NCBI GenBank assembly: GCA_009782175.1
Contig: WRKR01000030.1
Location: 1-35,850, forward strand
Source of the DNA: Cystobacterineae bacterium
GTDB taxonomy: Bacteria; Myxococcota; Myxococcia; Myxococcales; Myxococcaceae
Reading direction: 5' to 3'
Length of the DNA stretch: 35,850 nt
Positions 1,844-31,726 of this stretch are shown piece after piece (positions within the stretch are counted from its first letter, which is position 1; each line of letters begins with the position of its first letter). The notes beneath the pieces are model-generated. The model worked only from the letters and a program-made list of their open reading frames with translations, did no database searches and was not told the origin of the DNA. Position numbers and translations under genes: made by a program.

Positions 1844-2269
1844 GCGTGCTTCTCCCTGCTGCCGGCCCTGCTGTTTTGCTTAAATAGCTGTTTTGCTTCA
1901 ATAGCTATGCCCCCGGAAACCCAGTGGAACTCAGGTGGAACTCAATGGGACACAACTCAATGGGACAGAGTGCCCCAGTGGAATAAATATAGGGCTATGC
2001 TTATTCGACTTTTGAAATATATGCAAGCCCCAGTGCAGCGTAGAGTATAAGGAGAAAATTCCCGCTGAGCTTCCCAGCTGAGCTGCGGATAAAAACTATT
2101 ACTCTGTGTGTTTGTTGGGGTTTTTTTGAAAAAACGCTGGACTTTCTCCCTCAGGGGGAATAAAATGCCTGGCCTGGGCTTTAGGTGCAAAAAGCCAGGC
2201 TTTAGGCGCAAAAATTCAGGCTTTAGTTGTTCAGTTGCAGGAAAAAGGGAAGGAAAAAGGTGCAGGACA
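1844..2269. other. Divergent intergenic region with three short tandem repeats
   Basis: This 426-bp stretch separates two divergent lipoprotein genes and should hold both promoters; I could not assign clear -35/-10 pairs. It contains a 17-bp unit twice (from 1872), a 15-bp step with AACTCAATGGGACA repeated (1939-1952 and 1954-1967), and a 21-bp unit about 2.5 times (2177-2227, each starting GGCTTTAGG). The plus-strand reading frame of the RCC1 gene stays open back to 2108 and would turn the 21-bp units into 7-residue repeats. The signal peptide starting at 2270 argues against using that upstream start. Confidence 0.55.
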
Positions 2270-4130: not shown

Positions 4131-6476
4131 ATGAAGGCCTCATTTCCCGTGAAAAAAATATTCATCAGCTATGCCCATAAGGACAATATACAAAGCCAGG
4201 TGGGTGCATTGTTGCAGTGGCTCAACAGGCAGGAAGGCATTGAGGCCATGGCGGATCTGCTCTATGCGGATGTTCCGCCTGCGCAGGGTTGGCAAGCGTG
4301 GATGTTGCACGGCATAGAGGAGGCCGATGTAGTTTTGTGTATTTGCGGAGAAGCCTATAAAAAAGGCTTTGAAAAAAGGGGCGGCGGCATGGGCGTCACC
4401 TGGGAGGGCGCCATTGTCAACATGGGCTTGTGTGAAAGCCACGGTTGGAATAAAAAATATTATCCCATTTTGGCCAAGGAGGGCGCGCACTCCTGTGTAC
4501 CCACGCCGCTAAAGCCCTGGGACAATGGCATTGCTTTGAGAGAGTGGGAGAGGATTTTTGCTCTGGCACGGGCCGGTGGAATGTCCCTTGCGCCCGACCC
4601 GCATGGGCTTTTAAAAATAGACACAAAACGCCCGGCATTTCGCCATTTGCAGCGGGAAACCGACGAAAAACAAGCACGCTCCTCCACCTTCCTGCGCCTG
4701 CGCTTTGCCGAGCGCGCTGTGGATTATGTGCGCCATGAAGAAGTTTGGCAGGCATTTGAAGGGTTTTATAACTCGACGGCTCCTTTCTCGTGGTGGTTGA
4801 TTATAGGTGGCGCGGGGAGCGGAAAAAGCCGGACAGCACTCGAGTTTTGTGAATTTCTCAAACAGAAAAAATGGAGCGCAGGCTTTTTAAGCCTTGAAAA
4901 TACGGACACGGAAATATGGCATACATGGTGCCCACAAGAGGATACCCTGCTGATCATCGACCATGTGGCACGAGAGTTTTCTGAATGTCCACCCGATATT
5001 TCCCGTATTTTCACTACACTTGCACGCCGTGCGGAGAGGGAGGCGTGGGGAAAAAAGCGCATCCGCATTGTGCTTTTGGATAGGGAATATAAGGAGCAGG
5101 GAGGGGCAGGGTGCTTGCTCGAATGGTATCAATGGCTGGATAAAAACATGTGTTATCAGCCGCCTTTTGTCTTGAGCACCGTCAGCAATGAGGGGCTCTA
5201 TCGCATCGCCCAACAGACGGCCCAATATATTTGGAAATCCCCCCATCCGCTCCCGGAGCTCTCGGAGTTTCTGTGCAAGCTGGAACAGTTGGACGAAAAA
5301 AAACGCCCGCTCTTTGCCATGTTGCTGGCGGGGAAAAGCAACCCCAAAAGCGAAATTTCTACCAACGAGGTGTTGGACTTCCTCATTGAGCAGGAGTTTG
5401 AGCGCTCATGGGGCCCCGCAGGCATAGAAGAAAGCACCACCTTGCTCCATGCCCTGCTCTTATCCACATGTACCTTCGGCAGGTGGGGCGCCTGCACCCT
5501 GCCACCTCACCACCGCTTGTGGAATTCCGGTTTGGGGAGCCTCCATGAGAAAAACGGCGAAAACCGCTTCCTCTTCCACCCCGTCGAGCCGGATCTGCTC
5601 GGCGAGCGCTTTGTGCTGACACGCGCAGGCGGCAACCGTTTTGGGCGCATAGGCAAAAAAAAGTTGGGCACATTGCTTCGGGGGTGTTGGCGAGAGACTC
5701 CCCTGGAAATAACCTTCTTTTTCAAACGCTGTGCGCAAGACTTTGCCGCGTCTGATTCGGAAAACATCGCCAACCTCTTCCTCTCGTCTATGCCGGTAGA
5801 GTTCATGAAGCAGGTGCCATGGCTTATAAACAGTGTACAGCTGATGGCTTTGCTCGACCTTCCCGCCGCAAGCAAAATATGGCAGAGCGCAGACAAGCTT
5901 ATGAGCAACAGTCCGATGCTTGAGGTTATTCGCCCCGATATTGTTTCTTCTCTGGTCAGCGAATATTGCAAGGCTCAAAAGCTCCCGGAGGCTCGGAAGG
6001 TGTTTGAGGGCATGGCCATCTTGGGTGACACGCCTAAAGTTTTGGTTTTTAGAGCCTATGCGGCCTTCTCTCTTATTTGTGGATATTGCGAAGCTCAAAA
6101 CCTCAAAGAGGCACAAAATGTGTTTGAGGGGATGGCCATGTTGGGTGACACGCCTAGGCTAAGGCTTAAGCGTGCCAAAGCGGCCTCCTATCTCATTGAT
6201 GAATATTGCAGAGCAGAAAACCTCCCAGAGGCACAAAAGCTGTTTGAGGGCATGGCCATGTTGGGTGAAATGCCAGAGCTAAAGCTTGAGCGTTCCAAAG
6301 CGGCCGTCCATCTTATCCGTGGATATTGCAGAGCAAAAAAACTCAAAGAGGCACAAAAGCTGCTTGAGGCCATAACCATGTTGGGTGAGATGCCGGAGCT
6401 GGAGCTTGAATGCAGAAATACAGAGCTCTCTTTAATTTGCTTATACTATGAAACTGGATATTTCCAAGGAGCCTAG
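4131..6476 (+). CDS. SEFIR-NTPase-repeat protein (NLR-like)
   Basis: 781 residues, probably cytosolic. Residues about 8-140 form a SEFIR/TIR-type domain: strand motif KIFISYAH, an acidic loop, helix WQAWMLHGIEEADVVLCIC, and a later GVTWE with W91-E92. Residues about 221-330 hold a P-loop NTPase with Walker A GGAGSGKS (226-233) and a Walker B-like LLIIDHV (273-279). Residues about 603-781 are four or more 40-residue helical repeats (YC.A..L.EA...FEGMAMLGD.P) that resemble PPR/TPR motifs and are nearly identical at DNA level. Effector-NTPase-helical array matches the layout of NLR/STAND immune receptors; bacterial SEFIR proteins are known from phage defence through NAD depletion. Its function here is inference. 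A GTG at 4149 is an alternative start. Confidence 0.85.
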   Translation: MKASFPVKKIFISYAHKDNIQSQVGALLQWLNRQEGIEAMADLLYADVPPAQGWQAWMLHGIEEADVVLCICGEAYKKGFEKRGGGMGVTWEGAIVNMGLCESHGWNKKYYPILAKEGAHSCVPTPLKPWDNGIALREWERIFALARAGGMSLAPDPHGLLKIDTKRPAFRHLQRETDEKQARSSTFLRLRFAERAVDYVRHEEVWQAFEGFYNSTAPFSWWLIIGGAGSGKSRTALEFCEFLKQKKWSAGFLSLENTDTEIWHTWCPQEDTLLIIDHVAREFSECPPDISRIFTTLARRAEREAWGKKRIRIVLLDREYKEQGGAGCLLEWYQWLDKNMCYQPPFVLSTVSNEGLYRIAQQTAQYIWKSPHPLPELSEFLCKLEQLDEKKRPLFAMLLAGKSNPKSEISTNEVLDFLIEQEFERSWGPAGIEESTTLLHALLLSTCTFGRWGACTLPPHHRLWNSGLGSLHEKNGENRFLFHPVEPDLLGERFVLTRAGGNRFGRIGKKKLGTLLRGCWRETPLEITFFFKRCAQDFAASDSENIANLFLSSMPVEFMKQVPWLINSVQLMALLDLPAASKIWQSADKLMSNSPMLEVIRPDIVSSLVSEYCKAQKLPEARKVFEGMAILGDTPKVLVFRAYAAFSLICGYCEAQNLKEAQNVFEGMAMLGDTPRLRLKRAKAASYLIDEYCRAENLPEAQKLFEGMAMLGEMPELKLERSKAAVHLIRGYCRAKKLKEAQKLLEAITMLGEMPELELECRNTELSLICLYYETGYFQGA

Positions 6477-8590: not shown

Positions 8591-8944
8591 AAGAGACGGA
8601 GCTTCAACGGAGCTTCAACAATGTCTGCACAACAGTGAAAACAGTGTATACCCATCAACACCAGGGGCAAATAATACATGGGTAGCTCATATAGGGAAAA
8701 TAATATTTAACAAATAACACATAAGGGCATATATATGCCCACAATATATGCCCCCAATATATGGCTACATAGGAAAAATGCCTTTTAAAAACTTCACCCA
8801 AGCAACAAAAGCAGAAGCTCATATTCTTCAAAATGGCCCAAGCACTCCAGTTGGCAGAGCAGTTGGCAGAGCAGGTGGCAGAGGCTGCCCACCGTGGACA
8901 GCGTGGCCTCTGGGGTGTGGAATATCTGGAGCAACGTGGCGCTC
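8591..8944. other. Intergenic region with 16-bp palindrome and 12-bp tandem repeat
   Basis: This region lies between the divergent GT9 and second SEFIR genes. It holds a perfect 16-bp palindrome GGGCATATATATGCCC (8725-8740), followed by CAATATATG twice (8742-8750 and 8755-8763). Near the SEFIR start, a 12-bp unit GTTGGCAGAGCA is repeated about three times (8850-8885). The AT-rich part at 8660-8770 is the likely promoter zone. A 44-codon open frame (8833-8967) overlaps the SEFIR start; its status is uncertain. Confidence 0.5.
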
Positions 8945-10129
8945 ATGAAGGTGTTTGTCAGCTATAGCCATGAAAATAAGGCACACAGCGCTCGTGTTTT
9001 GGAGCTTGCGGATGCTTTAAATATAGCAGGAATAGACACAGAGTTGGATCAATACCATTCAACCAGCGAGTTGTCCTGGTGGCGCTGGTGTGAGGAGCAG
9101 ATAAGAAGAGCCCATTTTGTGCTGATGATCTGCACGCCTGTTTATAGGGAAAGAATTGAAAACCCCTATGAGAATCCGGATACAGGCCTGGGGGTTTGCT
9201 GGGAGGCGGACTATATTTATGAAAAACTTTATGAGCTTAAAGGGCGCAACAAAAAATACCTTCCTGTCTTGCTGGACGAAAACGATCGCTCCAGCATTCC
9301 TGAGAGGCTGCGCGGCTATTCCTGTTATGCACTTGTGCGCCCCTATCCCAAATGTGAGGGCTTTCAAAAGCTGGTCGATCGCCTCAATGAAGTGAACCGA
9401 ACCCCCAAGCCACCACTGGGTGAGCCGGCTCCTCTACAGGCCATGCCAGCAAGCATCAATGCCATGGAAAGCCTCAATGAAGATGGGGCGCTGTTGCACC
9501 AACGGCCCATGCGCTCCCCTGTATTTAACCACACAACACGGGAAAGCAGGCATACAACACGGAAAAGCAGGGAAAGCCCCCAGAAGGCTGAGCGCGCCAG
9601 CGCGGCACTGGCACTCGAGAGCGCCCAGGCAGCTCTGCATTTGATTGAGAGTTATAGCAAAACCGGAAACCTTCAGGTGGCACTCAAGATGTTTGAGGCC
9701 ATGGCTGAGCTGGGCAATACGCCGGATATTGCGCTTTGTCGCGCCAAAGCAGCTCTCAACCTCATTGATGATTATGGTAGAGCCGCAGACCTCCCCAAGG
9801 CGCATATGCTGTTTGAGTCCATGGCCGAGCTGGGCGATAGGCCGGAAATTGCACTTTGTCGCGCCAAGGCTGCTGCCCGTTTGATTGATGATTATGTGAA
9901 GGCCCAAAACCTCTATAAAGCGAAAAAGCTGTTTAAACCCACAGCTAAATTGGGCAGTACGAAAACCACGCATGAGTCTAGCCAAGAAACGGCTCCGCTG
10001 ATGGAGGATGGCACCAAAGCCCAAAACCTCCCAGAAATAGAAAAGCTGCTTGAAACCATGGCCCAGCTGGGTGATGCGCCTGAACTCAGACTCGAACGCG
10101 CCAAGGCCGCATTCTCCTTGAAAAGCTAG
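8945..10129 (+). CDS. SEFIR-domain protein with PPR-like repeats
   Basis: 394 residues from the ATG chosen because it puts MKVFVSYSHE, the canonical first strand, at the N-terminus; the frame is open back to 8894. Residues 1-150 are a clear SEFIR domain: FVSYSH, GIDTELDQY, WWRWCEEQIRRAHFVLMICTPVY, and GLGVCWEADYIYE with W86-E87, followed by KKYLPVLLDE. After a low-complexity linker (about 160-220), residues about 228-394 contain four 40-residue helical repeats, the third degenerate. They are of the same family as those in the SEFIR-NTPase protein at 4131-6476, but no NTPase is present. It may be a partner or a stand-alone effector of that receptor. The paralogy is seen directly; the shared pathway is inferred. 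Confidence 0.85.
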   Translation: MKVFVSYSHENKAHSARVLELADALNIAGIDTELDQYHSTSELSWWRWCEEQIRRAHFVLMICTPVYRERIENPYENPDTGLGVCWEADYIYEKLYELKGRNKKYLPVLLDENDRSSIPERLRGYSCYALVRPYPKCEGFQKLVDRLNEVNRTPKPPLGEPAPLQAMPASINAMESLNEDGALLHQRPMRSPVFNHTTRESRHTTRKSRESPQKAERASAALALESAQAALHLIESYSKTGNLQVALKMFEAMAELGNTPDIALCRAKAALNLIDDYGRAADLPKAHMLFESMAELGDRPEIALCRAKAAARLIDDYVKAQNLYKAKKLFKPTAKLGSTKTTHESSQETAPLMEDGTKAQNLPEIEKLLETMAQLGDAPELRLERAKAAFSLKS

Positions 10130-14992: not shown

Positions 14993-16960
14993 TCACCTCC
15001 TATTTTTCTTCGTCGGCAAACCGGTTTTAAAATCAACCCCCTTCTTCAAAGCCATTTCCTCAATATGTTTCTCCGGAAGAGGCGGCAAAGCGTCCTCCTT
15101 CTCCCTGTTTTTTAGCCACATCATCTGCCCATCCCACGCGGGGAGTTTGGCCGGAGGCAAGGGGACAATTTCGTCAATTTCATCCACAGTGGCGTTGAGG
15201 CGTTTATTCTCATCAAGGTGTTTTTTAATTTGTTTATAGCGGCTGGCGCGCTCCTCATCCTTGGTTTGGCCCAAGTCATCCAAGCGCGCATTCGGAGGAG
15301 CTCCTGAAAAGGCATTTTGCAACATATAAGCCGCTTTGGAATTTCCCGCTCGGGCAGCCATTTGCAAATATTGTATTGCCTGCGCATATTCCTTTCTTCC
15401 CTTCAGCTCGTCTGCCACCTCAATGGCCGCCTCCGCATGCCCCTGCGCCGCCGCACAATATTTCATTTCCAAACCCATTTTATAGAGGGCGGGGTGAGCA
15501 GGGCCCAGGGAAGTCAGCTTGTTTCCCATAAAATATTGCGCCTCCGGGTTGCCCAAGTCGGCAGCCTTCCGGAAATGTTGGATTGCTGTTTTGGAGTCCT
15601 TCTGAACGCCATGGCCCTTGTCGAGCAAGTGCCCCATCAACATATAGCCTTCAGCTATGCTGCGCTGAATGAGTTGTTCGGCAAGCTCAACGGGCTGGGT
15701 GACAAAGTCATCATGCGCTGTGTGGCCCTCCACCATCATCCCTGCCAGGAGGACGGCTGCCTTGTCGTGTCCCCACGCAGCAGCAATTCTATAGAGTCGC
15801 TCAACTTGCAGAAAAACCGTCTTGTCGGCCTTCAGCAGGTTTTTCTTGTGGAGCCCATGGGCATGTTTGAAGAGTTTGTCGGCATCTGCATTGCGCTTTG
15901 GAATTTGCACTTCCTCAAAGGCACAGCTAAATGGCGGCTGGGTTTCCAGTTGGAGAGGTGCCTCAAGGCCAGTCTCCGCTTCAAGGCCTTTGGCCAGCGC
16001 CATTGTTTGAATGCGTTTCTCACTGGGCAGCGGTGGAGGTGTGTCGAATTTCAATTGCGCAATTTCCCCATCCCATGCAGGGAGTTTCGCCGGTGGAAGC
16101 GGAACAATTTGCTCAATCTCGTCGATGGTGACATTGAGATAAGAGTGTTGCTTCAAAACCTTCGACAGCTCAGCATAACGACGTGCACGTTCCTCGTCTT
16201 TGGTTTGGCCCAAATCATCAGAACTGTCTTCTGAGGGGCCATTGAAGGCCTTGCTCAATTGATTGGCCGCCTGGGCACTGCCTGCTTGGGCAGCTATCTG
16301 CAAATATTTGAGCGCTTCTTCAGGTTTATCCTCCCTCGCCATGTGGTGTGCTGCCTCGGCATGCCCCTGCACTGCCGCGCAGCGCCTCATCTCTTCGTGA
16401 TCGGCAACAAAATATTGCGCCTCCGGGCTTCCCAACTTTGCCGCTTCCCGGAAATATTGCCGCGCCGCCTTCTTGTCCTTCTCCACGCCATAGCCATTTT
16501 CGAGCATTAAACCCATTAAAACATAGCCCTGAGGGCTGCCGCGGCGGATAAGCATTCCGCTTATTTCCACGGCCTCAGTGGCGGCATTTTCGGAGGCCAA
16601 ATAACCCTGCATGAGCATGAGTACCAACTCCTTGGCCGCCAAATTATTCCCCCATGCAGCAGCAATTCTATAAAGCCGTCCAGCCTCCGCAAACAATACG
16701 GGGCTTCTTGTTTCCATCAGGTTTTTTTTGCGGAGCCAGCTTGCGTGCTCAAAAAGTTTGTCTGCGTCCGGGTTGCTCAAAGAGGTGTGGTGTTTTTCAT
16801 AAGTGCATATAAAGGGAGAGGCGCTCTCTTGTGGGCTGTCAGGCATGGGAAACAGGTTGGGCGTTTTGACAACCTGAAAACCCGTTGCGGCGCAGCCCGC
16901 GAAAAACAGGCCAAAGAGCAGTGCCAAAACAGGGCAAGAGGTATTGTGCAGTGTTTTCAT
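14993..16960 (-). CDS. Sel1-repeat lipoprotein, two modules (Sel1-A)
   Basis: 655 residues. Lipobox FAGC (Cys23) marks an exported lipoprotein. Two tandem copies of a roughly 315-residue module follow. Each opens with PF.C..E, then a DADKLF.HA..L helix pair, LYRIAAAWG, Sel1 repeats (GYVLMGLMLENGYGVEKDKKAARQYFREAAKLGSPEAQYF type), a CAA.QGHAEAA helix, DEERA.RY, and the motif IVPLPPAKLPAWDG (near 16090-16123 and 15152-15180 in DNA). The proline-rich motif recalls a domain I remember as DUF6396 in Sel1 proteins. Sel1 repeats mediate protein-protein contacts. Its ATG overlaps the stop of the upstream gene by 4 bases, so it is probably translationally coupled. It is the last gene of the three-gene unit. 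Confidence 0.85.
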   Translation of the reverse strand: MKTLHNTSCPVLALLFGLFFAGCAATGFQVVKTPNLFPMPDSPQESASPFICTYEKHHTSLSNPDADKLFEHASWLRKKNLMETRSPVLFAEAGRLYRIAAAWGNNLAAKELVLMLMQGYLASENAATEAVEISGMLIRRGSPQGYVLMGLMLENGYGVEKDKKAARQYFREAAKLGSPEAQYFVADHEEMRRCAAVQGHAEAAHHMAREDKPEEALKYLQIAAQAGSAQAANQLSKAFNGPSEDSSDDLGQTKDEERARRYAELSKVLKQHSYLNVTIDEIEQIVPLPPAKLPAWDGEIAQLKFDTPPPLPSEKRIQTMALAKGLEAETGLEAPLQLETQPPFSCAFEEVQIPKRNADADKLFKHAHGLHKKNLLKADKTVFLQVERLYRIAAAWGHDKAAVLLAGMMVEGHTAHDDFVTQPVELAEQLIQRSIAEGYMLMGHLLDKGHGVQKDSKTAIQHFRKAADLGNPEAQYFMGNKLTSLGPAHPALYKMGLEMKYCAAAQGHAEAAIEVADELKGRKEYAQAIQYLQMAARAGNSKAAYMLQNAFSGAPPNARLDDLGQTKDEERASRYKQIKKHLDENKRLNATVDEIDEIVPLPPAKLPAWDGQMMWLKNREKEDALPPLPEKHIEEMALKKGVDFKTGLPTKKNRR

Positions 16961-19900
16961 TTCGCCTCCTTCTGCATCGGCCTGCCCGTTGTGGGCTCAA
17001 GGCCTTTGGCGCGCGCCATTTCTGCAATGCGTTTTTCGCTCAGCGGTGAGGCTTTGTCTTTTCCCCATTTTTCTATCCATGCAAGCTGGCCGTTCCACGC
17101 AGGGAGTTTGGCTGGGGGAAGCGGCACAATTTGCTCAATCTCATCAACGGTAACATTGAAATGAAAATACTCATTCAAAACTGCCAAAACTTTCGCCATT
17201 TCTTTATAGCGCGCAGCGCGCTCTTCGTCTTTGGGAAGCCTCAGCTTTTGGAGCGACCTCAGTTGGAATTCATGCGGTGAAGAAAAGTGCATTCTTTCTC
17301 TGAGGGAATGGTTTTCCTCGTCCTCTTCAGGAGCGGAGCTCATAAAGAGGTAATGCAGAAGGTTTGCCATCTGGGCATCTCCTGCCCTAACGGCAAGCTG
17401 GAGGTATTGGAGTTTCCCGGCATCCTTCTTCGGAGCCCTCTCCTCCTCCTCCGTTGCATATGCATATGCCCTCTCGTCCTCTTCACTTTCTCTGTTGCCA
17501 AGGAAAGCCATGTGCCTTGCTGCACCGGCATGCCCCTGAGCTGCCGCGCAACGCATCATCTCATGGCCCACCTCGTGTGGAAGGAGATGGCTCTCTCTGC
17601 CTTTCTCATTGCTCAACCGGTTGCCCACCCAATATTGCGCCTCGGGGTTGCCCAAGTCAGCCGCTCTCCGGAAATATTGCAGTGGAGGTTTGGAGTCCTC
17701 TTCTATGTTATGGCCCTCTTCCAGCAGTTTTCCCAGGAGATAATAGCCGCGCGGAATGCCGCGGTGGATGAGTTGCTTTGAAATTTCAACGGCCTCAGCA
17801 AGGGCAGCTGCACAAGCCCCTGCGTTTTCGGCAAGCAAATATACCACGGCCTCTGCGGCCTTCTCATGCCCCCACGCGGCGGCAATGCGATAGAGCCGAT
17901 CGACTTTTGCGGATATTTCGGGTTTTCGCTCTTCGGTTTTCAGGTTTTCTCTATGAAGCTCCTGTGCATGCCGAAAAAGCTTGTCCGCTTCTGTTTCGCC
18001 CTGTGGAATGCGGCTTTTTTCATGGGTGCAGACAAAAGGCAGTTGCCTTGCGAGGGAGCCGGGTATTTGAGACAGCTCATCCACCACTTTCCCGTCCGCA
18101 TCTTTTTTTAGGGGGTAGCCAGTTTGAGGGTGGAGGCCTTTGAGCAGTGCCATTTCTTCAATGCGTCTCATGGCGGGCAGCGGCGGGGGAATGTTGGATT
18201 CCCACTTTTGCATTCCCTTGAGTTTTTCATTCCACGCAGGCAGCTCAGCAGGAGGCAATGGCACAATGTTGTCTATGTCGTCCACTTTAATGTGGATATA
18301 GTCATTGGCATAGTTGTTGAGGTTGATGGTGCGAGAGATATAGGGATGGTGGATGTTCTCCTCTGAGGGAATAGAGTCAAAGAGGTTTTGAAGATGCTCA
18401 TAGCGCCTTGAGCGCTCCTCGTTGTTTTTTTCGTCTCTGTTTTGGAGCGGGCTTTTTTTCTTGCCACGTCTGCCGTGTTTTTCGTCTTCTCCTTCACCGT
18501 CTGCGGCCAAATACCATTCCTCATTAAAGTCGGCATCCCCCTCAGCGTTAACCTTGGCATATAGGAAGAATTTTTTCAAATATCTCGCAGCCCTTGTATT
18601 GCCTGCTTGGGCTGCCCTTTGGACATATGTGAGTGCTTCATCCTCTTTCTTTTCTTCTATGAGCTCCTGCGCCAAAAGGATCAACGCTTCGACATGCCCC
18701 TGGGCTGCCGCGCAGTGTATCATCTCTTTGCCTATTTTCGGTTGCTTCTGTTCGCTCAGCCGGTTTCCCAGGAAATATTGTGCCTCTGGGTTTCCCAAGT
18801 CGGCTGCTTGTCGGAAAAATTGAAGGGCCGCTTTGGAGTCCTTTTTAAGGCCATGGCCTTTGTCGAGCAAGACGCCCATCAGCCTATAGCCATGGGGAAT
18901 GCCTCGGCGGATTAAATCCTCGGCAAGCTCGACAGGCTTGCTCAAAAAGTCACTCGACACAGGCTTCAAAAACGCGCTTCTGTCCATGAGCAGATGGGCC
19001 AAATTGTTGGCCGCCTTGTCGTGCCCCCACGCGGCGGCAACTCGATAGAGTCGCTCCATTTCATGGAATTCACCCGAGGTTTTCTCTTCTTCATAGAAGC
19101 CTTTTTGGCTCATTTTTTCGCGAAGGCTTTTTTTATAGAGCCAGTTGGCACGCTGAAAAAGCTTCTCTGCGTCCGGGTGGTTGGGAGGAATTCGGTCCTC
19201 TTCAAAGGCGCAGGTGAAAGTGGGTTGTTCTTCCAGTTGGGGGGTTTTGGGAAGGCCGGTTTTGAAGTCGAGGTTTTTGGCGCGCGCCATTTCCTCAATG
19301 CGTTTTTCACTGGGGAGCGCGGGGGCTTTGGCTGGGCTCCACTTTTTCAGCCAGGCTTCTCTTTTGTGTTTTTTCACCCATGCAATGTGCCCATCCCATG
19401 CGGGGAGTATGGCCGGGGGGAGGGGGACAATGCTGTCCATTTCGTCCACAGTGGGAGAAGGGCGGTTCCAATAAGGACTGGAATGGTGCCCGGGGTGATG
19501 CTCCGGGAGAAAGTTGCTGATCCTTTCATAGCGGGCGGCGCGCTCTTCGTCCCTTTCTTGCCCCAAATAGTCCTCATCAGAAACATCCACCCCTGAGAAT
19601 GCTTTTTGCAGCCGCTTTGCCGCCTCCTGGCTCCCTGCTTTGGCGGCCTTCTGGAAATATTCGAGCAACTCGGCATGGCTCTTCTCTCCTTTCGAGCAGC
19701 AAGCCTCGAGGTATAACGCTCTGGCATTTCCTTGCTCTGCCGCGCATTGAAGCATTTCCCTGCTTATTCTGGAAATATAGTTGGAATTGAAAACCACGGG
19801 GTTCTGGCAGTCGGTCAACTGACTCCACAACGCATATTGTGCCTCCTTGTTGCCCAGCTCAGCCGCTTTGCGGAGGTATTGCAGTGAAACAGGGTTTTGT

Positions 19901-21531
19901 TTGCTGTCCTGGTTGCCCAGCAAATAGCCCTTCAAATAATAACCGCGGGGAACGCCTCGTTGGATGAGCGCATCCGCATGCTCGTGGGTAAACGCGTTGC
20001 TCTCTTCGCCTTCCAGGAGAACCATCAGCTTGTTGGCTGCCTCCTCATGTCCCCACGCGGCGGCAATGCGATAGAGCCGTTGGGCTTCGCTCATTCTTTT
20101 TTCAGAGTCCTTCTGCTCATCCTTTGGCTTTTCTTCTTCTTCCTCTTCGCTCTCCTCGTCGAGGCTTTTGTTTTTTTTCAGTTCGTCTTGCGCATAAAGC
20201 CAGTTGGCGTGTTGATAGAGCATTTCGGCTTCTGAAGGAGGTGGAGGCAAAGGAGGCATGTTTTCTTTCTCATGGGTACAAGAGAAAGGCAGTTGTTCTT
20301 CGAGGCTGGCGGGCATGGAGGACAAGTCAGGCAACTTGAAAATGCCAAAATGTTTTTCCAGTCCACTGGGGGCGGCAGAAGCAGCCACAGGTATTTTTGG
20401 GCTCCCTATGTTGTGTGTATAGGCTTTGCTGTGCGCGGTTTTGGGAGGCTGTGCATTCTGTGCAGCCATGGCCTCCATCCTCTGTATGGAGTGGCCGGTT
20501 TTAAAGTCAAGGCCCTGGGTGTGGGCCATTTCCTGAATGCGTTTTTCGCTTGGCAGCGGTGGGGCCTTGCCTTTCACATATTTCAGCCCTGCGAGTTGCC
20601 CGCCCCACCCGGGGAGTTTGGCCGGGGGGAGGGGGACAATGTTGTCAATGTCGTCGACGGTGAGGTTGGCATTGTCATATGAGGAGAGGGCCCCATAAAT
20701 TTTGCCATAGCGCCTTGCGCGCTTCTCGTCTTTGGCCAAGCCCATATAACTCCACTCGCCGGGCTTGGCCAAAAAGGCTTCTTGCAATGTTTCCGCCGCA
20801 TATTTGTTTCCTGCTTTGGCAGCCTTCTGAAAATATTTGAGTGCATGGGCATGCTTTTTTTCTTGGTGCAGCTTTAAGGCCACCTCATATGCCGCTTTGG
20901 CGTGCCCCTGATCTGCCGCGCACTGCTTCATTTTCTCCCCCATTTCATGGAGGAGGGGCGCTTTTTCCTTCTCCAAACCCGTCAACTGCTTCCCCATGAA
21001 ATATTGTGCTTGGGGGTTACCCAAATCAGCGGCCCTTCGGAAATATTGCAGCGCAGTTTTTCTGTCCCAAACAACGCCATGGCCCCCATCGAGGAGGCGG
21101 CCCATAAAATAATAACCCTGGGGAATGTTGCGGCGGATGAGCCATTCCACCAAGTCCACCACCAGGCTTTCGTTGTCTGGTGCTTCCACCAACCCCTCCA
21201 CCAACACCTCCGCAAGCATTTGGGCCGCCCTCTCATGCTCCCACGCAGCGGCCATGCGATAGAGACGCACAGCTTGGTTGAGGCGGCCCTTGTTATGGAG
21301 CCACTTGGCGTGTTGGAAAAGTTTTTCCGCGTCCGGGTGGGGCTTTGAGGGTCGGCTTTTTTCAAAAATGCAAGTGAAGGGCAATTGCTCTTGCAAGTTG
21401 TTTGGGCTTTTGGACACATCCGCCGGCACGTCTATTTTTCGAAGCTCCTGTGCGGATGCGTTGCCCAACACAAGCAACCAGCCAAGCAGCAACGCCGAAA
21501 TTCGGCCGGAAATATTTTTCAATATTTTCAT
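16957..21531 (-). CDS. Giant exported Sel1-repeat protein, four modules (Sel1-B)
   Basis: 1524 residues. The signal peptide ends NASA before QEL, indicating ordinary Sec export rather than lipidation, unlike its two neighbours. Four copies of the same module follow, enlarged to about 380-400 residues by charged or glutamate-rich insertions (for example the EESEEEEEEKP run in module 2). The IVPLPPA..LP motif lies in DNA near 17108, 18246, 19416 and 20626. Each module keeps the two invariant cysteines (PF.C and CAA.QG). The protein could be periplasmic or secreted and bind several partners or copies of one ligand. The gene sits 150 bases downstream of Sel1-C and overlaps Sel1-A by 4 bases. Confidence 0.85.
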   Translation of the reverse strand: MKILKNISGRISALLLGWLLVLGNASAQELRKIDVPADVSKSPNNLQEQLPFTCIFEKSRPSKPHPDAEKLFQHAKWLHNKGRLNQAVRLYRMAAAWEHERAAQMLAEVLVEGLVEAPDNESLVVDLVEWLIRRNIPQGYYFMGRLLDGGHGVVWDRKTALQYFRRAADLGNPQAQYFMGKQLTGLEKEKAPLLHEMGEKMKQCAADQGHAKAAYEVALKLHQEKKHAHALKYFQKAAKAGNKYAAETLQEAFLAKPGEWSYMGLAKDEKRARRYGKIYGALSSYDNANLTVDDIDNIVPLPPAKLPGWGGQLAGLKYVKGKAPPLPSEKRIQEMAHTQGLDFKTGHSIQRMEAMAAQNAQPPKTAHSKAYTHNIGSPKIPVAASAAPSGLEKHFGIFKLPDLSSMPASLEEQLPFSCTHEKENMPPLPPPPSEAEMLYQHANWLYAQDELKKNKSLDEESEEEEEEKPKDEQKDSEKRMSEAQRLYRIAAAWGHEEAANKLMVLLEGEESNAFTHEHADALIQRGVPRGYYLKGYLLGNQDSKQNPVSLQYLRKAAELGNKEAQYALWSQLTDCQNPVVFNSNYISRISREMLQCAAEQGNARALYLEACCSKGEKSHAELLEYFQKAAKAGSQEAAKRLQKAFSGVDVSDEDYLGQERDEERAARYERISNFLPEHHPGHHSSPYWNRPSPTVDEMDSIVPLPPAILPAWDGHIAWVKKHKREAWLKKWSPAKAPALPSEKRIEEMARAKNLDFKTGLPKTPQLEEQPTFTCAFEEDRIPPNHPDAEKLFQRANWLYKKSLREKMSQKGFYEEEKTSGEFHEMERLYRVAAAWGHDKAANNLAHLLMDRSAFLKPVSSDFLSKPVELAEDLIRRGIPHGYRLMGVLLDKGHGLKKDSKAALQFFRQAADLGNPEAQYFLGNRLSEQKQPKIGKEMIHCAAAQGHVEALILLAQELIEEKKEDEALTYVQRAAQAGNTRAARYLKKFFLYAKVNAEGDADFNEEWYLAADGEGEDEKHGRRGKKKSPLQNRDEKNNEERSRRYEHLQNLFDSIPSEENIHHPYISRTINLNNYANDYIHIKVDDIDNIVPLPPAELPAWNEKLKGMQKWESNIPPPLPAMRRIEEMALLKGLHPQTGYPLKKDADGKVVDELSQIPGSLARQLPFVCTHEKSRIPQGETEADKLFRHAQELHRENLKTEERKPEISAKVDRLYRIAAAWGHEKAAEAVVYLLAENAGACAAALAEAVEISKQLIHRGIPRGYYLLGKLLEEGHNIEEDSKPPLQYFRRAADLGNPEAQYWVGNRLSNEKGRESHLLPHEVGHEMMRCAAAQGHAGAARHMAFLGNRESEEDERAYAYATEEEERAPKKDAGKLQYLQLAVRAGDAQMANLLHYLFMSSAPEEDEENHSLRERMHFSSPHEFQLRSLQKLRLPKDEERAARYKEMAKVLAVLNEYFHFNVTVDEIEQIVPLPPAKLPAWNGQLAWIEKWGKDKASPLSEKRIAEMARAKGLEPTTGRPMQKEAK

Positions 21532-21606
21532 TCTACGTCATCTTCCTTTTTCAACAGCCGATGGGTTTTGAGGTGTGGAGGGCACAAAATTTCGGCCAGA
21601 AATTTT

Positions 21607-21657
21607 TTGCAACATTGGGTTTTTTGCAGCATTGGGTTTTTTGCAGCCTTGGGCGCC
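21607..21657. repeat. 17-bp tandem repeat between Sel1 genes
   Basis: Units TTGCAACATTGGGTTTT (21607-21623) and TTGCAGCATTGGGTTTT (21624-21640), then a third diverged copy, lie in the 150-bp gap between Sel1-C and Sel1-B. No hairpin with T-run was noted, so read-through between the two genes is plausible. Confidence 0.7.
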
Positions 21658-21681
21658 CGGCATTCTCATGCAACTTCACGC

Positions 21682-24600
21682 TCATTTCGTTTTTTTATGT
21701 ATAGGCAAACCCGTCTCGGGGTGAAGGCCCTTCTTGAGGGCCATTTCCTTTATGTGCTCTGCCTCAGGCAGCGGGGGAAGTGCATTCCCCTCCAACTTCT
21801 TCACCCATTCAATTTCACCATTCCACGGGGGAAGTTTGGCCGGGGGGAGGGGCACAATTTTGTCAATTTCCTCAATGGGGCCCCAGCTCTTCTCCTGGTA
21901 GAAGCTTGGGGAGAATGCTTTGAAAGCTTCATATATTTTTACATAGCGCTTTTCGCGCTCTTCATCCCTGGCCTGCCCCATATAGTCTTCATGAGAAGGG
22001 GCCACGCCGGAGAAGGCTTTTTGCAACTCATAGGCTGCCCACCTGTTTCCTGCTTTGAGGGCCATGTGGAAATATTGGAGTGCTTCGGCATATTTTTTTT
22101 CGTCCTTCAAAACCTTCGCCACCTCATATGCCTCTTCGAAATGGCCTTGCTTCGCCGCACAGTGTTGCATTGCTTTGCTCAGCTCACCGGACAATTCTCT
22201 TTTTAAAAAATATTGTGCTTCCACGTCGCCCAAGTCGGCAGCTTTTCGGAAATATTGCAAAGGCTCATAGAGTCCGTCCCCCCTGCCATAACCTTGTTTG
22301 AGCAGAGAGCCCATCAGGAAATAGCCCTGGGGAGCGCCGCGACGGATGAGCTCCTCGGCAATCTCAAAGGGTTTGCTGCTGTGGCGGCTATAAGCGGCTT
22401 GGCCGTGCACCATCATCTGCACAAGCTCATAGGCGGCCTTCTCATGGCCCCAGGCAGCGGCGATGCGATAGAGGCGCTCTATTTCCGCATGGCTCTCCCT
22501 ATGCTCCCTATGCCTCTGTTTTTCGCTTTGCTCCATAAGCCAAAAGGCATGCTCAAAGAGTTTGTCTGCTTCCGCGTTGTGCTGCAACATTCGGTCTTTC
22601 CCGGTGGTGCAGACAAATGGCCATTGCTCCTCCTGCGTGCGCGCTATGTTCGACAAGTCCTCGTGGGAACCGCGCACAATTTTCTTTTTCGGGCGACCAG
22701 TCCCGGGCTCAAGGCCTTTGGCGCGCGCCATTTCTGCAATGCGTTTCTGGCTTAAAAGCGGCGGTGGCTCGTCTTTTCTTTTTTTCCACTTTATTGCGCC
22801 ATTCCACGGAGGGAGTTTGGCCGGGGGGAGCGGCACAATTTTGTCAATTTCGCTGACAATGGCTTTGGCGCCTTCAAAGTCATATCCCTCTTTGGCATAG
22901 CTGTCTAAGGCGAGGGTTTTTTCAATTTTCTCATAGCGCTTTGCACGCTCCTTGTCTTCGGCCTGGCCATAATAGTCCCACTCATCCTTCGGTGGGGGGT
23001 TTGAGAAGGCTTTTTGCAAAGCCTGGGCTGCAAAGCGATCTCCCGCCTTCGCGGCCTTCTGGAGATATTTGAGCGCCTCGGCATATTTCTTCTTTTCCCT
23101 CAAATGCCGAGAGAGCATAGAGGCTGCTCTGGCTTCTCCCTGATCTGCCGCGCAGCGAAGCATCTGCATGCCCACCTCGTTGGACAAGCTGTTTGCCAAA
23201 AAATATTGTGCCTCCGGGTTTCCCCAATCGGCCGCCTTTCGAAAATAGCGAATGGCCGCTTCTGTGTCTTTTTTGACGCCATATCCTGTGTCGAGCAGGC
23301 GCCCCATCCAATAATAACCCAGGGGAATACCGCGGTGGATGAGGCTTTCGGCCAGGCCCAGGGGCAGGCTCCTCCCGTCCACCCCTTTGTTATGAGACAG
23401 CTTATCCATCATCATCACCACGAGGTTGTTGGCTGCCTTCTCGTGTCCCCATGCGGCGGCAATGCGATAGAGTTGCTCGGCACTCACAGCGTCTTCCGAG
23501 CGGTTTCGGTGGTGCTGCAGCCAATTCGCATGCCTAAAAAGTATATCCGCATCCGCATTGCGTTTTGGGAGGCGGGTTTTCTCATGTACACAGCTAAACG
23601 GCAGTTGTCCTTTGAGCGTGCCGGGCAACTCCTCTAGGGGAATGTTGGCAATGTTTTTCACCAAGGGCCAACCGTTTTCTGGATAGAGTTTTTTGGCTTG
23701 AGCCATTTTGGCCACCTGCTTTTCGCTGGGGAGTGCCGGAGCTTCTTTGCGCTTCAGCTTGCCATCCCACGCGGGAAGTTTGGCCGGGGGCAGCGGCACA
23801 ATCTGCTCAATGTCGTCGACGTTGGTTTCGTTATAATAAAGGAGTTCAGAAATGTGTTTATAGCGCATGGCGCGTTTTTCATTTCCGGCCAAGCCCAAAT
23901 AACTTGCAGAGCCAGGATAAGGGAAACGAAATCCGCTTTCGAGCGTGCTTGCTGCGCTCCTGGAGCCCCGTTTGACGGCAAGCTGATAATATTCGACGGC
24001 TTCACCATATTTCTTTTGAGCCTGCAAACGCTCCGCCACCTTATATGTCGCGTCAGCATGCCCTTGCTCTGCCGCGCAGCGAAGCATCTGCATACCCATG
24101 TCTTCAAAGAAGCTGTTTCCCAGGACATATTGCGCCTCCGGGTTGCCCAAGTGGGCAGCATCCCAGAAATGCCCTTGTGCAGTTATGGTGTTCTTCGGAA
24201 TGCCATGGCCTTTCTCAAGCAGGCGCCCCATCAAATAATGGCCGCTGGGTATACCGCGCCGCATAAGCTCCTCGGCAATTTCAACGGGCTTGGTGCGGGT
24301 ATAGGCTGTGTGGCCCTCCATCATCATCTCTACCAGGAAGACGGCGGCCTTGTCATGCCCCCAAGCGGCGGCAATGCGATAGAGTCGTTCAATTTCTAAA
24401 TAAGCCTTTTCGTCGCCCTTGTGTCGGTTTTGCTTGTGCAGCCCATGGGCATGCTCAAAGAGTTTGTCTGCCTCTGCATTGCGCTTTGGAATGCGCTCTT
24501 TCTCAAAGGTACAGGTGAAAGTCCGTTGCTCTTCTATGGGCTTGGGCGCCTCGTCACTTGGGGCATGGGACTGTGTTCCGCTGGGCAGCTTCTCCGTTGA

Positions 24601-25827
24601 GGCCTCTAGGCCCTTTGGCCAGCCGGTTTTGGGGTTAAGCCCCTTGGCAAGCGCCATTTCTTCAATGCGTTCTTCGCTGGGCAAGGGGGAGCTCCATGGG
24701 GTTGCTTTCCCATCCCATGCAGGGAGTGGGGCGGGAGGCAGGGGGAGGATGGTGTCAATTTCATCCGCTGTAGGGGGGGTATGCTCCTTGTTAAAGAAGA
24801 GCTCTGAGAGTTTGAGATAGCGTCTTGCACGCTCTTCATCCTCGGCCAAACCCCAAAAATCCTCGTCACCCAGAAAGTCCTCATCATCCGGCTCAGCAGC
24901 AACCCCTGAAAAAGCTCTGTATAGCTTATATGCCGCTGAAGCGGCATATGCTGCCCAGTCAAAATGCCCCGTTGTGTTCCCCCCCGTTTTAACAACCCTT
25001 TGCAAATGTTGTATTGCTTCTTCGTATTTCCTGTTGCGCCTTAGCCAGTCTGCCATGAGCGATGTCATCAAAGGGTGACCCTGCTCTGCCGCGCAGAGCA
25101 ACATTTGCTCGCTTAACTCAAGCGAGTTGAAGCGCCCATATAAGTTAAACCCCAAATCCGCCTGCGCCACCGGGTTGCCCAAGTCAGCCGCCCTGCGCAG
25201 GTATTGCCAATAGCCATGGGTGTCTCCCTCCTCGCTTATACCCTTGAGCCACAAAAGAGCCCTCAAATAATAACCGTGAGGAATGCCGCGGCTGATGAGC
25301 TCCTTGGCAACCTCCAGAGGCTTGGTGGTGCGATCGCCGGCCTCAGAGTCGTCAGAAATCAGCAGGAGAGCCAGGGAATGGGCCGCCCTGTCATGTCCCC
25401 ACGCGGCGGCAATTCTATAAAGTCGCTCAATGGTGGCTTTGTCTTCCTTGGACGGGTTTTTCTTGTGGAGCCAATGGGCATGCTTAAAGAGTTTGTCGGC
25501 ATCTGCCTCACCCGGAGAAATTTGCTCTCTCTCAAAAACACAGGTGAAAGGGGGCTGGTTTTCCAGCGTATCCGGAAGCTGGGAGAGGCTGGGCAACTCC
25601 TGGCTTGGGGCAGGGGTATTGTTGAGCCCAAGGGCCTCGTGTGTGGCAGGGGCGTTGTGTGTAGCAGGAGTATTGTGTGTAGCAGGAGTATTGTGTGTAG
25701 CAGGAGTATTGTGTGTAGCACAACTTGCAAGCCACAAGCTCAACCCCAACGCTCCCCACGCTCCACGCCGGCCAAAACCCTTTTGCAAGCCCAAGCCCAC
25801 CTTATTTTGGAACAACTTTGCGCTCAT
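21682..25827 (-). CDS. Sel1-repeat lipoprotein, four modules (Sel1-C)
   Basis: 1381 residues. The ATG has an AAGGGTG ribosome site. The N-terminus is long and basic before the hydrophobic core and lipobox LASC (Cys36). The mature protein starts with a hexapeptide repeat (THNTPA three times, then THNAPA), a flexible tether from the membrane. Four modules of about 320-330 residues follow, with the PLPPA.LP.W motif near 24735, 23783, 22821 and 21838 in DNA. Modules contain the Sel1 signature (GYYLMGRLL..GHG..KD...A.. FRKAADLGNPEAQYF) and the conserved cysteine pair. It is the first gene of the minus-strand cluster. Its role is unknown; scaffold or sensor functions are typical of Sel1 proteins. 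Confidence 0.85.
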   Translation of the reverse strand: MSAKLFQNKVGLGLQKGFGRRGAWGALGLSLWLASCATHNTPATHNTPATHNTPATHNAPATHEALGLNNTPAPSQELPSLSQLPDTLENQPPFTCVFEREQISPGEADADKLFKHAHWLHKKNPSKEDKATIERLYRIAAAWGHDRAAHSLALLLISDDSEAGDRTTKPLEVAKELISRGIPHGYYLRALLWLKGISEEGDTHGYWQYLRRAADLGNPVAQADLGFNLYGRFNSLELSEQMLLCAAEQGHPLMTSLMADWLRRNRKYEEAIQHLQRVVKTGGNTTGHFDWAAYAASAAYKLYRAFSGVAAEPDDEDFLGDEDFWGLAEDEERARRYLKLSELFFNKEHTPPTADEIDTILPLPPAPLPAWDGKATPWSSPLPSEERIEEMALAKGLNPKTGWPKGLEASTEKLPSGTQSHAPSDEAPKPIEEQRTFTCTFEKERIPKRNAEADKLFEHAHGLHKQNRHKGDEKAYLEIERLYRIAAAWGHDKAAVFLVEMMMEGHTAYTRTKPVEIAEELMRRGIPSGHYLMGRLLEKGHGIPKNTITAQGHFWDAAHLGNPEAQYVLGNSFFEDMGMQMLRCAAEQGHADATYKVAERLQAQKKYGEAVEYYQLAVKRGSRSAASTLESGFRFPYPGSASYLGLAGNEKRAMRYKHISELLYYNETNVDDIEQIVPLPPAKLPAWDGKLKRKEAPALPSEKQVAKMAQAKKLYPENGWPLVKNIANIPLEELPGTLKGQLPFSCVHEKTRLPKRNADADILFRHANWLQHHRNRSEDAVSAEQLYRIAAAWGHEKAANNLVVMMMDKLSHNKGVDGRSLPLGLAESLIHRGIPLGYYWMGRLLDTGYGVKKDTEAAIRYFRKAADWGNPEAQYFLANSLSNEVGMQMLRCAADQGEARAASMLSRHLREKKKYAEALKYLQKAAKAGDRFAAQALQKAFSNPPPKDEWDYYGQAEDKERAKRYEKIEKTLALDSYAKEGYDFEGAKAIVSEIDKIVPLPPAKLPPWNGAIKWKKRKDEPPPLLSQKRIAEMARAKGLEPGTGRPKKKIVRGSHEDLSNIARTQEEQWPFVCTTGKDRMLQHNAEADKLFEHAFWLMEQSEKQRHREHRESHAEIERLYRIAAAWGHEKAAYELVQMMVHGQAAYSRHSSKPFEIAEELIRRGAPQGYFLMGSLLKQGYGRGDGLYEPLQYFRKAADLGDVEAQYFLKRELSGELSKAMQHCAAKQGHFEEAYEVAKVLKDEKKYAEALQYFHMALKAGNRWAAYELQKAFSGVAPSHEDYMGQARDEEREKRYVKIYEAFKAFSPSFYQEKSWGPIEEIDKIVPLPPAKLPPWNGEIEWVKKLEGNALPPLPEAEHIKEMALKKGLHPETGLPIHKKTK
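25639..25720 (-). repeat. 18-bp coding tandem repeat (hexapeptide tether)
   Basis: Four full 18-bp units (25639-25656, 25657-25674, 25675-25692, 25693-25710) plus a partial fifth; the middle three are identical. In the Sel1-C gene they encode THNTPA-type hexapeptides just after the lipidated Cys. Unit loss or gain keeps the frame and would change tether length. Confidence 0.9.
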
Positions 25828-28375: not shown

Positions 28376-30466
28376 ATGAAAAACATTCCCGAGCTGTTTG
28401 CAAGCATGGTGTTCAACGACGAAACGATGCGCTCACGTCTGCCTAAAGACATTTATCAGGCGCTCAAAAAAACAATGAAAGAGGGCACGCACCTGGAGAT
28501 GGAGCTTGCGAATGTTGTGGCGAATGACATGAAGGAGTGGGCGCTGGAAAAGGGTGCGACGCATTTTTCGCACTGGTTTCAGCCGATGACGGGCTTTACT
28601 GCGGAAAAGCATGACAGCTTTATTTCCCCGGTGGATGACGGGAAGGTTATTATGGAGTTTTCGGGCAAGGAGCTTGTACGCGGCGAGCCCGACGCCTCCA
28701 GCTTTCCGTCGGGTGGTTTGCGCGCGACATTTGAAGCGAGGGGTTATACGGTTTGGGACATTACCAGCTATGCGTTTATTAAGGATGGCACACTGTGCAT
28801 TCCTACCGCATTTTGCTCCTATGGTGGTGAGGCGCTGGATAAAAAAACACCGCTCTTGCGTTCCATGGACGCCATCGACAAACAGGCGCGGCGCGTTTTA
28901 AAGCTGTTTGGCAACACCTCGGTGCGCCGGGTTTTTCCCACCGTAGGCCCTGAGCAGGAATATTTTCTCATAGACAAAAATGCTTATTTAAAGCGTGCGG
29001 ATCTGGTTTTTACGGGCAGGACATTGTTCGGCGCGCGCCCGCCTAAAGGGCAGGAGTTGGATGACCATTATTTTGGGAGTTTGTCCCCGCGTGTTTCGGC
29101 CTTCATGAAGGAATTGGAAGAGGAGCTTTGGAAACTGGGGATAATGGCAAAAACCAAACATAACGAGGTGGCTCCCGCACAGCATGAGTTGGCGTTGATT
29201 TTTGCTACTGCAAACATTGCCACAGATCATAACCAGCTGACGATGGAAATGATGAAGAGTGTTGCCTATAAGCACGGCCTTGTTTGTCTATTGCATGAAA
29301 AACCTTTTGCGGGCTTAAACGGCAGCGGCAAGCACAACAACTGGTCCCTTTCTACGGATACAGGGGCAAACCTTTTGGAGCCTGGAGATACACCTCACGA
29401 AAATGCACAGTTTTTGCTGTTTTTGGTTGCTGTGGTGAAGGCTGTGGATGATTATCAGGAGTTGCTTCGCGTTTCGGTTGAAAATGCGGGGAACGATCAT
29501 CGCCTGGGGGCGAATGAGGCGCCGCCCGCCATTGTGTCCATTTTTTTGGGCGACGAGTTGACGCAGGTTTTGGAGTCCATAGAGTCAGGCTCGGCATACC
29601 ACAACAAGGAAAAATATCCGATGGAAATAGGGGTGACGGCATTGCCGCATTTCCCCAAAGATGCGACGGACAGAAACCGCACCTCGCCCTTTGCTTTTAC
29701 GGGCAATAAATTTGAATTCCGAATGACAGGCTCATCGGTTTCCATTGCAGGTCCAAACATTGTTCTGAACACAGCTGTGGCCGAAACGCTGTCGCAGTTT
29801 GCTGATCTGCTTGAAAACACAAAGGACTTTAACGCCTCACTCGCCAGGCTGATCCAAGAAACTTTTAGAGCGCACAAGCGCATTGTTTTCAATGGCAATA
29901 ATTATAGTGTGGACTGGGTGAAGGAAGCGGCGGCTCGGGGTTTATCCAATTTAAAAACAACGGTGGACGCGCTTCCGGCATTTATTTCTGAAAAAAGCAT
30001 AAGCGTGTTTGCCAGGCATTGCGTCTTTTCAAAGACAGAAATTCATTCGCGTTATGAAATTCTCACGGAATGTTATTCTAAAACGCTGTGCATTGAAGCT
30101 TTAACCATGCTCTATATAACCAAGGGAGAAATAATACCTGCGTCTATTGCCTACCAACATGAGCTTGCCTCCCTTTTGGAGTCTAAAAAAGCCTGCGGCA
30201 GTTATGACAGCTCTCTCGAAAGTTTTTTGCTTGGGCAAATTGCCAGTGTGTCCGCAAGGCTGTTAGAAAAATTAAATGCCCTCGAGCATGCGGTTGAAGA
30301 AGCCAAGAGGGAGCAAAACATGGAAGCGCAAGCGGCTTTATTGGGCAGCAAGGTGCTTGGCTGCATGTCGGAATTGCGGCTTGCCGCGGATGAGCTGGAA
30401 AGCCTTATTGCCAAAAAACATTGGCCTCTGCCCTCTTATGCTGAGCTGCTTTATAGCGTTATATAA
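28376..30466 (+). CDS. glnN: Glutamine synthetase type III
   Basis: 696 residues, in the range of GSIII and far longer than GSI (about 470). The enzyme joins ammonia to glutamate using ATP. Family marks include the early F.......M...LPK start, [10 protein letters not shown], the metal-binding [26 protein letters not shown] (the NEVAPGQ-type loop of GSIII), [12 protein letters not shown] and [18 protein letters not shown]. These cover the ATP- and metal-binding sites, so the enzyme should be active. GSIII is typical of Bacteroidota, cyanobacteria, some spirochaetes and others. There is no strong Shine-Dalgarno. No nitrogen genes lie next to it. The gene is followed after a ten-C tract by a lipoprotein gene on the same strand. 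Confidence 0.95.
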
Positions 30467-30478
30467 ATGTGTTTCATT

Positions 30479-30488
30479 CCCCCCCCCC
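30479..30488 (+). other. Ten-C homopolymer tract
   Basis: A run of ten C follows the glnN stop by 12 bases and precedes a TATAAT (30503-30508). Such tracts are slippage-prone. The frame of the next lipoprotein is open through the tract from 30467, so length change would affect only the longest (unlikely) start or promoter spacing. Confidence 0.6.
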
Positions 30489-30592
30489 AAGCCCCTCAGA
30501 GGTATAATATAGCCATGAGAGCGTCACCCGTTCCCCCTGAAAAAACCAAAAGCACAAAGAAGCGGCACCTCAAGGGTATAACCCAAGCATAT

Positions 30593-31726
30593 ATGAGGAA
30601 TTTTTTAGCGCTTTTCCTTTTGGCCCTGTTTTGTGTTGCCTGTGCTCAAACGAAAAAAGCCCCTGTCCTTGCGCCCCTTAAAGAGGCCACCGCGCAACAA
30701 GAAGAGGCCAGCATGCCAGCGACGGACATGTTTGTGGACTTGTCTGTGTTGGACGAGCATGAAGCGGGCTGCACGTGGAGCCGCCTCCGTCTGCCGGAAG
30801 GGGAGCTGACAAGCATCGCTCAATTTTCGACCTCATGCGCTGGGGTGGATGTGGCGTGGAGCGCGGATTTAAAGCGCGCACTTGTCTCCTTTCATCCACA
30901 GCGTGCCGCCAGGAGCGCACCGCCGGGAGCCAACATCAGCCCCTTGCAGGCCTTTGAAGTGGAGATGGCGAGTGGAAAGCTGACGCTGCTTCCGTCTACC
31001 CGACAGCTTCGCGGTGAGGTAGAGGTGTTTGGACTTGGCCCTGAGGGCATCGTGGTATTGTCGTTGGAAGCTTCTCGAGAGCTTGAGGAGGCAATGTCCC
31101 AGGCGATGCAGAAGCAGGAGAAGAGCTTTCAACTGAGCGGGGGCGACGAGAAAATATCCATTGAGCTTCCCCATCCCGAAGAGTCTCCCGCAGGAGGCAT
31201 GTATGCCGTGGCACATGCCTGGCTGTTGAAAGAGGGCCGGTGGCAGCGGACAGAGTCCAAGTTTACAACCACGGGGTGGGATTATGGCCTTGACGTGAAG
31301 GAATTGGACGTTTATTCCCGACTGGGTCCACAGGCCAACCGTATGCTGGTGGTCCACTCTCTCCCCGAAGGGCAGGAGGTGAAGGAGGTGGGGCCGCTTG
31401 TGGCGTGGACACCGAAGAGCAACGACGAGCGAGACAACTGGAACAAGCAGTCCACGCCTTATGGTGAGTTGTTTGCTTGGATGACCTCCGGGGAATTCAG
31501 CATTATAACCGGCCTTCTTCTCTATCAGCAGAAGGGAGGGGAAATATTGCCGCTTCCCGGGTTGGGTTTTACGGAGAAAGAGTTTGTCGCCATACACATT
31601 CAAGGCCCATGGCTTTTGGTGGGGACCGCAGGCGTAGGGAAACGGCCTCGCGTCTATGACTTGAGGAGCGGCGCGTTGCTATGGTCTTCAGACAGCGCAC
31701 GCGCCGTTGTTTTTTGGCCGAACTAG
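30593..31726 (+). CDS. Lipoprotein of unknown function
   Basis: 377 residues from this ATG, chosen because it begins a lipoprotein signal (MRNFLALFLLALFCVAC, lipobox CVAC, Cys17). In-frame ATGs at 30467 and 30515 would add a basic extension; 30515 has AGAGG upstream and cannot be excluded. After an Ala/Glu-rich linker the sequence suggests beta-strand segments such as LPEGELTSIAQFSTS, ALVSFHPQ, VVLSLEAS, LLVGTAGVGKRPRVYDLRSG and LLWSSDSARAVVFWP. The last of these read like propeller or WD-like strands. I do not recognise the family. GTAGVGK is not a credible P-loop in an exported protein. Confidence 0.7.
   Translation: MRNFLALFLLALFCVACAQTKKAPVLAPLKEATAQQEEASMPATDMFVDLSVLDEHEAGCTWSRLRLPEGELTSIAQFSTSCAGVDVAWSADLKRALVSFHPQRAARSAPPGANISPLQAFEVEMASGKLTLLPSTRQLRGEVEVFGLGPEGIVVLSLEASRELEEAMSQAMQKQEKSFQLSGGDEKISIELPHPEESPAGGMYAVAHAWLLKEGRWQRTESKFTTTGWDYGLDVKELDVYSRLGPQANRMLVVHSLPEGQEVKEVGPLVAWTPKSNDERDNWNKQSTPYGELFAWMTSGEFSIITGLLLYQQKGGEILPLPGLGFTEKEFVAIHIQGPWLLVGTAGVGKRPRVYDLRSGALLWSSDSARAVVFWPN

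Follow-up and report, generated by a model that had tools for sequence, protein, structure and literature searches.

Arrays of fused Sel1-DUF6396 modules in a Cystobacterineae genome: candidate polyimmunity proteins related to the immunity proteins of PldB

Three adjacent genes in a 35,850-nucleotide stretch of Cystobacterineae DNA (the window, i.e., the whole stretch that was analysed) encode ten copies of one large Sel1-DUF6396 module. The explanation that we consider probable is that the modules are Tli5b-type orphan immunity domains, directed against T6SS phospholipase D, which arrived by horizontal transfer, then multiplied, became fused and diverged, and now make up periplasmic "polyimmunity" proteins.

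Layout of the array

The three minus-strand ORFs carry 4, 4 and 2 copies of one module (n=10). ORFs and Pfam matches agree on this count, which a preliminary description of the DNA had already given. The features are as follows:

21682..25827, minus strand: protein A, 1381 aa, predicted lipoprotein (LASC lipobox by eye, then a THNTPA-type repeat linker), 4 modules
24616..25560, minus strand: module A1, 315 aa
23665..24531, minus strand: module A2, 289 aa
22690..23610, minus strand: module A3, 307 aa
21703..22629, minus strand: module A4, 309 aa, whose tree neighbours are the modules of a second array on contig C44
21532..21681, minus strand: gap between A and B, 150 bases
16957..21531, minus strand: protein B, 1524 aa, predicted signal peptidase I substrate (signal by eye), 4 modules
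20488..21390, minus strand: module B1, 301 aa
19249..20298, minus strand: module B2, 350 aa
18112..19230, minus strand: module B3, 373 aa
16978..18048, minus strand: module B4, 357 aa
14993..16960, minus strand: protein C, 655 aa, predicted lipoprotein (FAGC lipobox by eye), 2 modules
15962..16825, minus strand: module C1, 288 aa
15014..15943, minus strand: module C2, 310 aa, modelled with AlphaFold2

B and C share 4 bases where B stops and C starts, and only the 150-base gap separates A from B, so A, B and C are likely to form one transcription unit. The module cores span 288-373 aa, with linkers of 6-63 residues between them. The earlier impression of one large repeated module was thus sound, but its size of 315-400 residues had included the linkers. 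Judged by eye, the N-termini show lipoboxes in A and C and a cleavable signal with AxA in B. From these, A and C are predicted to be lipid-anchored and B to be secreted, in line with the preliminary description.

Other genes of the window were also inspected. Two plus-strand genes (4131-6476 and 8894-10129) encode an N-terminal TIR/SEFIR domain (PADLOC bSEFIR) together with PPR-type repeats, which are unusual in bacteria. The gene of an RCC1-repeat protein (2108-3565, plus strand) has a GC3 of 0.43, lower than its neighbours. A type III glutamine synthetase (GSIII; 28376-30466, plus strand) has a 74% identical counterpart in one same-genus genome, and elsewhere in the sampled family and order only short, weak matches were obtained. 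The adjoining 419-residue ORF (30467-31726, plus strand) has no match in Pfam, PADLOC or PHROG.

Module sequence and fold

In a Pfam profile search, DUF6396 (PF19933) closes each of the ten window modules, with Sel1 repeats before it; the family is therefore Sel1-DUF6396, as the preliminary description had it. The whole-protein DUF6396 E-values for the three window proteins are 1.5e-64, 9.5e-105 and 9.2e-104, and all ten window modules as well as those on C44 exceed the curated cut-off of 28.2 bits. Chance resemblance to DUF6396 is excluded. Membership of the Sel1 superfamily (PF08238) is seen in both the profile match and the helical repeat fold. Weak matches to PADLOC DRT and to NCBIfam MerG, MotX and AlgK, the NCBIfam ones far below cut-off, were set aside as general Sel1 resemblance.

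A failure of the modules to align throughout had been envisaged, but the ten window modules are alignable over their full length. Pairwise identity among the 14 modules of the genome, including those of the second array, is 41-54% (average 47%). The alignment has more than 40 invariant columns, among them F5, C7, RxAAAW, CAAxQG, RxxRY and IxPLPPAxLPxW. Across the 14 modules 33 positions never vary, and outside relatives conserve these same positions to at least 90%, so the modules look constrained, not decaying. The column entropies of own modules and outside relatives correlate (0.69) and the variable surfaces are largely the same; a special diversifying interface is therefore not demonstrated.

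Structure prediction, one of the checks proposed at the outset, gave an AlphaFold2 model of module C2 (mean pLDDT 86, pTM 0.81; input alignment, the ten window modules). A two-module model reached a pTM of 0.46 and does not fix the relative placement of the modules. In a comparison of the C2 model with the PDB, the top Z scores belong to PA5087 (22.3), PA5086 (22.3) and PA5088 (21.9), and the next Sel1 protein scores 16.7. The same three proteins are the top three in Foldseek, and phmmer aligns whole modules to their chains. The modules are thus related over their full length, in sequence and fold, to the Tli5b-type immunity proteins. PA5088, PA5087 and PA5086 are the three immunity genes of PldB, a periplasm-targeting T6SS phospholipase D (PMC6099711). 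According to the discussion section of PMC13133936, the PldB immunity proteins form a "saucer" around part of the catalytic domain. For a phospholipase D encoded in a Salmonella VgrG island, a lipidated TPR-DUF6396 protein was predicted to provide immunity (2026 survey, PMC13304343).

The preliminary description had proposed a multivalent periplasmic or surface scaffold for a repeated ligand, several toxins or peptidoglycan enzymes. Multivalency holds, as do export and lipidation as predictions by eye, and fold, sequence and gene neighbourhood favour "several toxins" as the ligand, namely T6SS phospholipase D (Tle5/PldB). Nothing was found pointing to peptidoglycan enzymes or to a repeated surface ligand.

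Sel1 proteins such as LpnE and LceB of Legionella and Hcp of Helicobacter are believed to serve in host contact. Immunity-derived modules could likewise have been recruited as a scaffold for contact with a eukaryotic host or prey. The 2.7 Mb genome, in a family of mostly 4-13 Mb, suggests a host-bound life, TIR/SEFIR, RCC1 and NHL repeat proteins are encoded nearby, and the folds that rank next for the C2 model include LpnE and LceB. By its size the genome may be that of a reduced relative of myxobacteria with large genomes, perhaps near Pajaroellobacter. The host-interaction Sel1 proteins are nevertheless clearly lower in the fold comparison (Z 15 vs 22) and align by sequence search to the Sel1 part only. 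The immunity-family signature is, moreover, kept at the 33 positions in every module, and such a recruitment is considered unlikely.

Single-module relatives in other genomes

A scan of one genome per species yielded 78 outside loci. Of these, 64 have a gene for a PldB-like phospholipase next to the single-module gene or genes, usually immediately upstream; the PldB-like profile was seeded with 27 of these phospholipases, whose matches hold by construction. Nine of the 14 loci without a PldB-like gene are cut by a contig end less than 400 bases before the module gene. The full-length modules of the 78 loci occur one per ORF, with up to five such genes in series; in one Vogesella ORF the full module is accompanied by a brief additional match at the tail. 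In locus L017, the order is integrase, VgrG, phospholipase (PLD) and two DUF6396 genes. The sample code of this MAG, Nt197, refers to the gut of Neocapritermes taracua (PMC7024585). On a Rahnella plasmid, a PLD-DUF6396 pair is followed by a PLD gene with three DUF6396 genes. Behind these two units (L125:549-10937), the plasmid carries genes with DUF2235 and DUF2931 that may form a further effector-immunity set.

DUF6396 was found in 18 of 399 genomes sampled from the order of the L018 genome. No multi-module DUF6396 protein was found outside the window's genome in the 78 loci or the 399-genome sample. Arrays of this size had been unfamiliar from the start, and homologues of the whole three-gene unit, which might have proved common, were not seen in this material.

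Another possible function would be dose: all modules may bind the same toxin, and fusion would just add binding sites as a stockpile. P. aeruginosa has three immunity genes for one PldB (PMC6099711), an arrangement called a stockpiling mechanism in the title of a paper cited by PMC13133936, and tandem module genes are common in the relatives. However, tandem copies within one locus elsewhere have a median identity of about 80% (40 loci), against the 41-54% seen among the 14 modules here. Dose without breadth is therefore judged quite improbable.

Missing effector and T6SS

In the window's genome, neither the T6SS sheath protein VipB nor a VgrG-type hub was found, with E. coli positive as the control. 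A PldB-like effector or relative of the L018 phospholipase was not found there either, by a search that does find genomes holding one. Location beside a PldB/Tle5 phospholipase, typical of 64 of the 78 outside loci, is thus not seen in this genome. The genome's two other PLD-domain proteins do not fit as effectors. One of them, of 680 aa, has no match to the PldB-like profile, and its N-terminus, judged by eye, resembles polyphosphate kinase. No toxin-like gene was seen next to either array.

Because the effector was sought and not found, the arrays are "orphan" relatives and not part of a cognate effector-immunity pair. A missed effector is possible because the genome is in 65 contigs, but unlikely given its completeness of 99.95%. 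The related idea is that the modules protect against a self-toxin, encoded elsewhere in the genome, which belongs to a different effector family or leaves the cell by a different route. It draws on the same fragmentation and on the fact that immunity proteins are usually found together with toxins. It would have to accommodate the searches without PldB-like protein, VgrG or sheath and the lack of a toxin-like gene adjoining either array, and we give it very little credence.

Second array and assembly integrity

Contig C44 of the same genome carries a second array of 2+2 modules in two genes, directly upstream of rpsB-tsf-pyrH-frr (gene names by eye), which brings the total to 14. In two same-genus genomes, secA sits beside rpsB at this position, so the C44 array appears to be an addition at the rpsB site; the contig ends just before the array. 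Contamination of the assembly is unlikely, as tsf on C44 is 80-83% identical to that of the two same-genus genomes and the gene order is common to them. Together with the GSIII identity on the window contig, this makes it most likely, judging from sequence, that the arrays belong to this lineage. When the window-array site was compared with the G001 contig, GSIII was the sole match. The base composition of the array resembles its flanks, so composition gives no sign of recent transfer.

Origin of the modules

DUF6396 occurs in one of the 195 genomes searched of the phylum, that of the window; the other 194 are without it. A module-level tree with outside homologues, as had been suggested, was built from 146 modules. 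The 14 own modules fall together with L035, a betaproteobacterial protein from a termite gut, at 97% support, and this group adjoins proteins of Betaproteobacteria from higher-termite guts. A single clade of the 14 is not rejected by the data; the branches are long and the inner order of the tree is therefore unsure. The closest outside protein is at most 57% identical to any module. The L035 gene (7581-8984), which falls inside the group, has no PldB-like neighbour.

Horizontal acquisition is the best reading of these data, and the transfer probably ran from such Betaproteobacteria to the window's lineage. Six related betaproteobacterial MAGs were searched, and five contain a T6SS sheath gene. 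Four of the six are taken by us to be of termite origin. The sample codes of the other two, Nt197 and Th196, denote termite species (PMC7024585). Since higher-termite guts also yielded Polyangiaceae MAGs (PMC7024585), co-habitation is possible, and the window organism may live in termite guts alongside such Betaproteobacteria.

Comparison with known systems

PA5086, PA5087 and PA5088 (Tli5b1-3; PDB 6LCH, 5JKP, 5JJO) resemble the modules in full-length fold and sequence, in the PFxC N-cap and in CAAxQG, and their homologous genes stand in series as in the arrays. In contrast, they hold one module per protein and are encoded with PldB, whereas here 2-4 modules are fused per protein and neither effector nor T6SS was found. 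The Salmonella TPR-DUF6396 lipoprotein (PMC13304343) shares DUF6396, the lipoprotein signal (predicted by eye for A and C) and the predicted phospholipase link. Unlike the orphan arrays, it is a single protein with its effector, and is itself a prediction only. Sel1E of Klebsiella has Sel1 repeats like the modules and is a T6SS immunity protein, modelled on PA5087, but it protects against VgrG4 and not against a phospholipase (PMC7108748).

Polyimmunity proteins and loci, in which immunity exceeds toxins and for which pre-emptive defence was proposed, were described by Zhang et al. (2012, PMC3482391). As here (4, 4 and 2; 2 and 2 on C44), several immunity domains share one polypeptide, and the arrays would thus qualify as polyimmunity proteins if the modules are, as homology indicates, immunity domains. 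The domains described in the portion of that paper used here are SUKH, SuFu, Imm and similar ones, with no Tli5b/DUF6396 example among them. The rAID arrays of gut Bacteroidales (PMC12247911) resemble the present arrays as orphan, diverged immunity genes against the T6SS of neighbours. They are separate recombinase-associated genes, with the SUKH domain studied, whereas the modules here are fused. No recombinase was identified by Pfam among the window genes flanking the array. The arrays would combine polyimmunity, known since 2012, with orphan immunity arrays, for a phospholipase-immunity family.

Proposed mechanism and significance

Under the explanation preferred here, that of acquired Tli5b-type immunity domains, the ancestral gene probably encoded a periplasmic lipoprotein with one module and came from a Betaproteobacterium resembling those found in the guts of higher termites; neither its effector nor the T6SS would have come along. 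Copies of this gene would then have been joined in frame, giving exported proteins with 2-4 modules each, and would have diversified. The proteins would reside in the periplasm, where a lipid anchor would tether two of the three. Once a neighbour injects a PldB-like phospholipase, the fitting module would clamp the enzyme and stop the breakdown of membrane lipids, while divergent modules would cover different effector variants. Binding, inhibition and one specificity per module are likewise proposed. As the modules share only 41-54% identity with each other and at most 57% with the closest outside protein, their specificity could have been lost or changed.

The most far-reaching version is put forward tentatively: a small-genome bacterium without a T6SS may own a polyvalent shield, its 14 diverged modules being matched to different PldB-like phospholipases that armed neighbours use, and fused in lipid-anchored or secreted proteins. 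If true, polyimmunity would extend to periplasmic phospholipase immunity, and the 14 natural variants would be a ready-made series for asking how immunity specificity diversifies. The arrays would also point to pressure from the T6SSs of others on a lineage where the searches met none.
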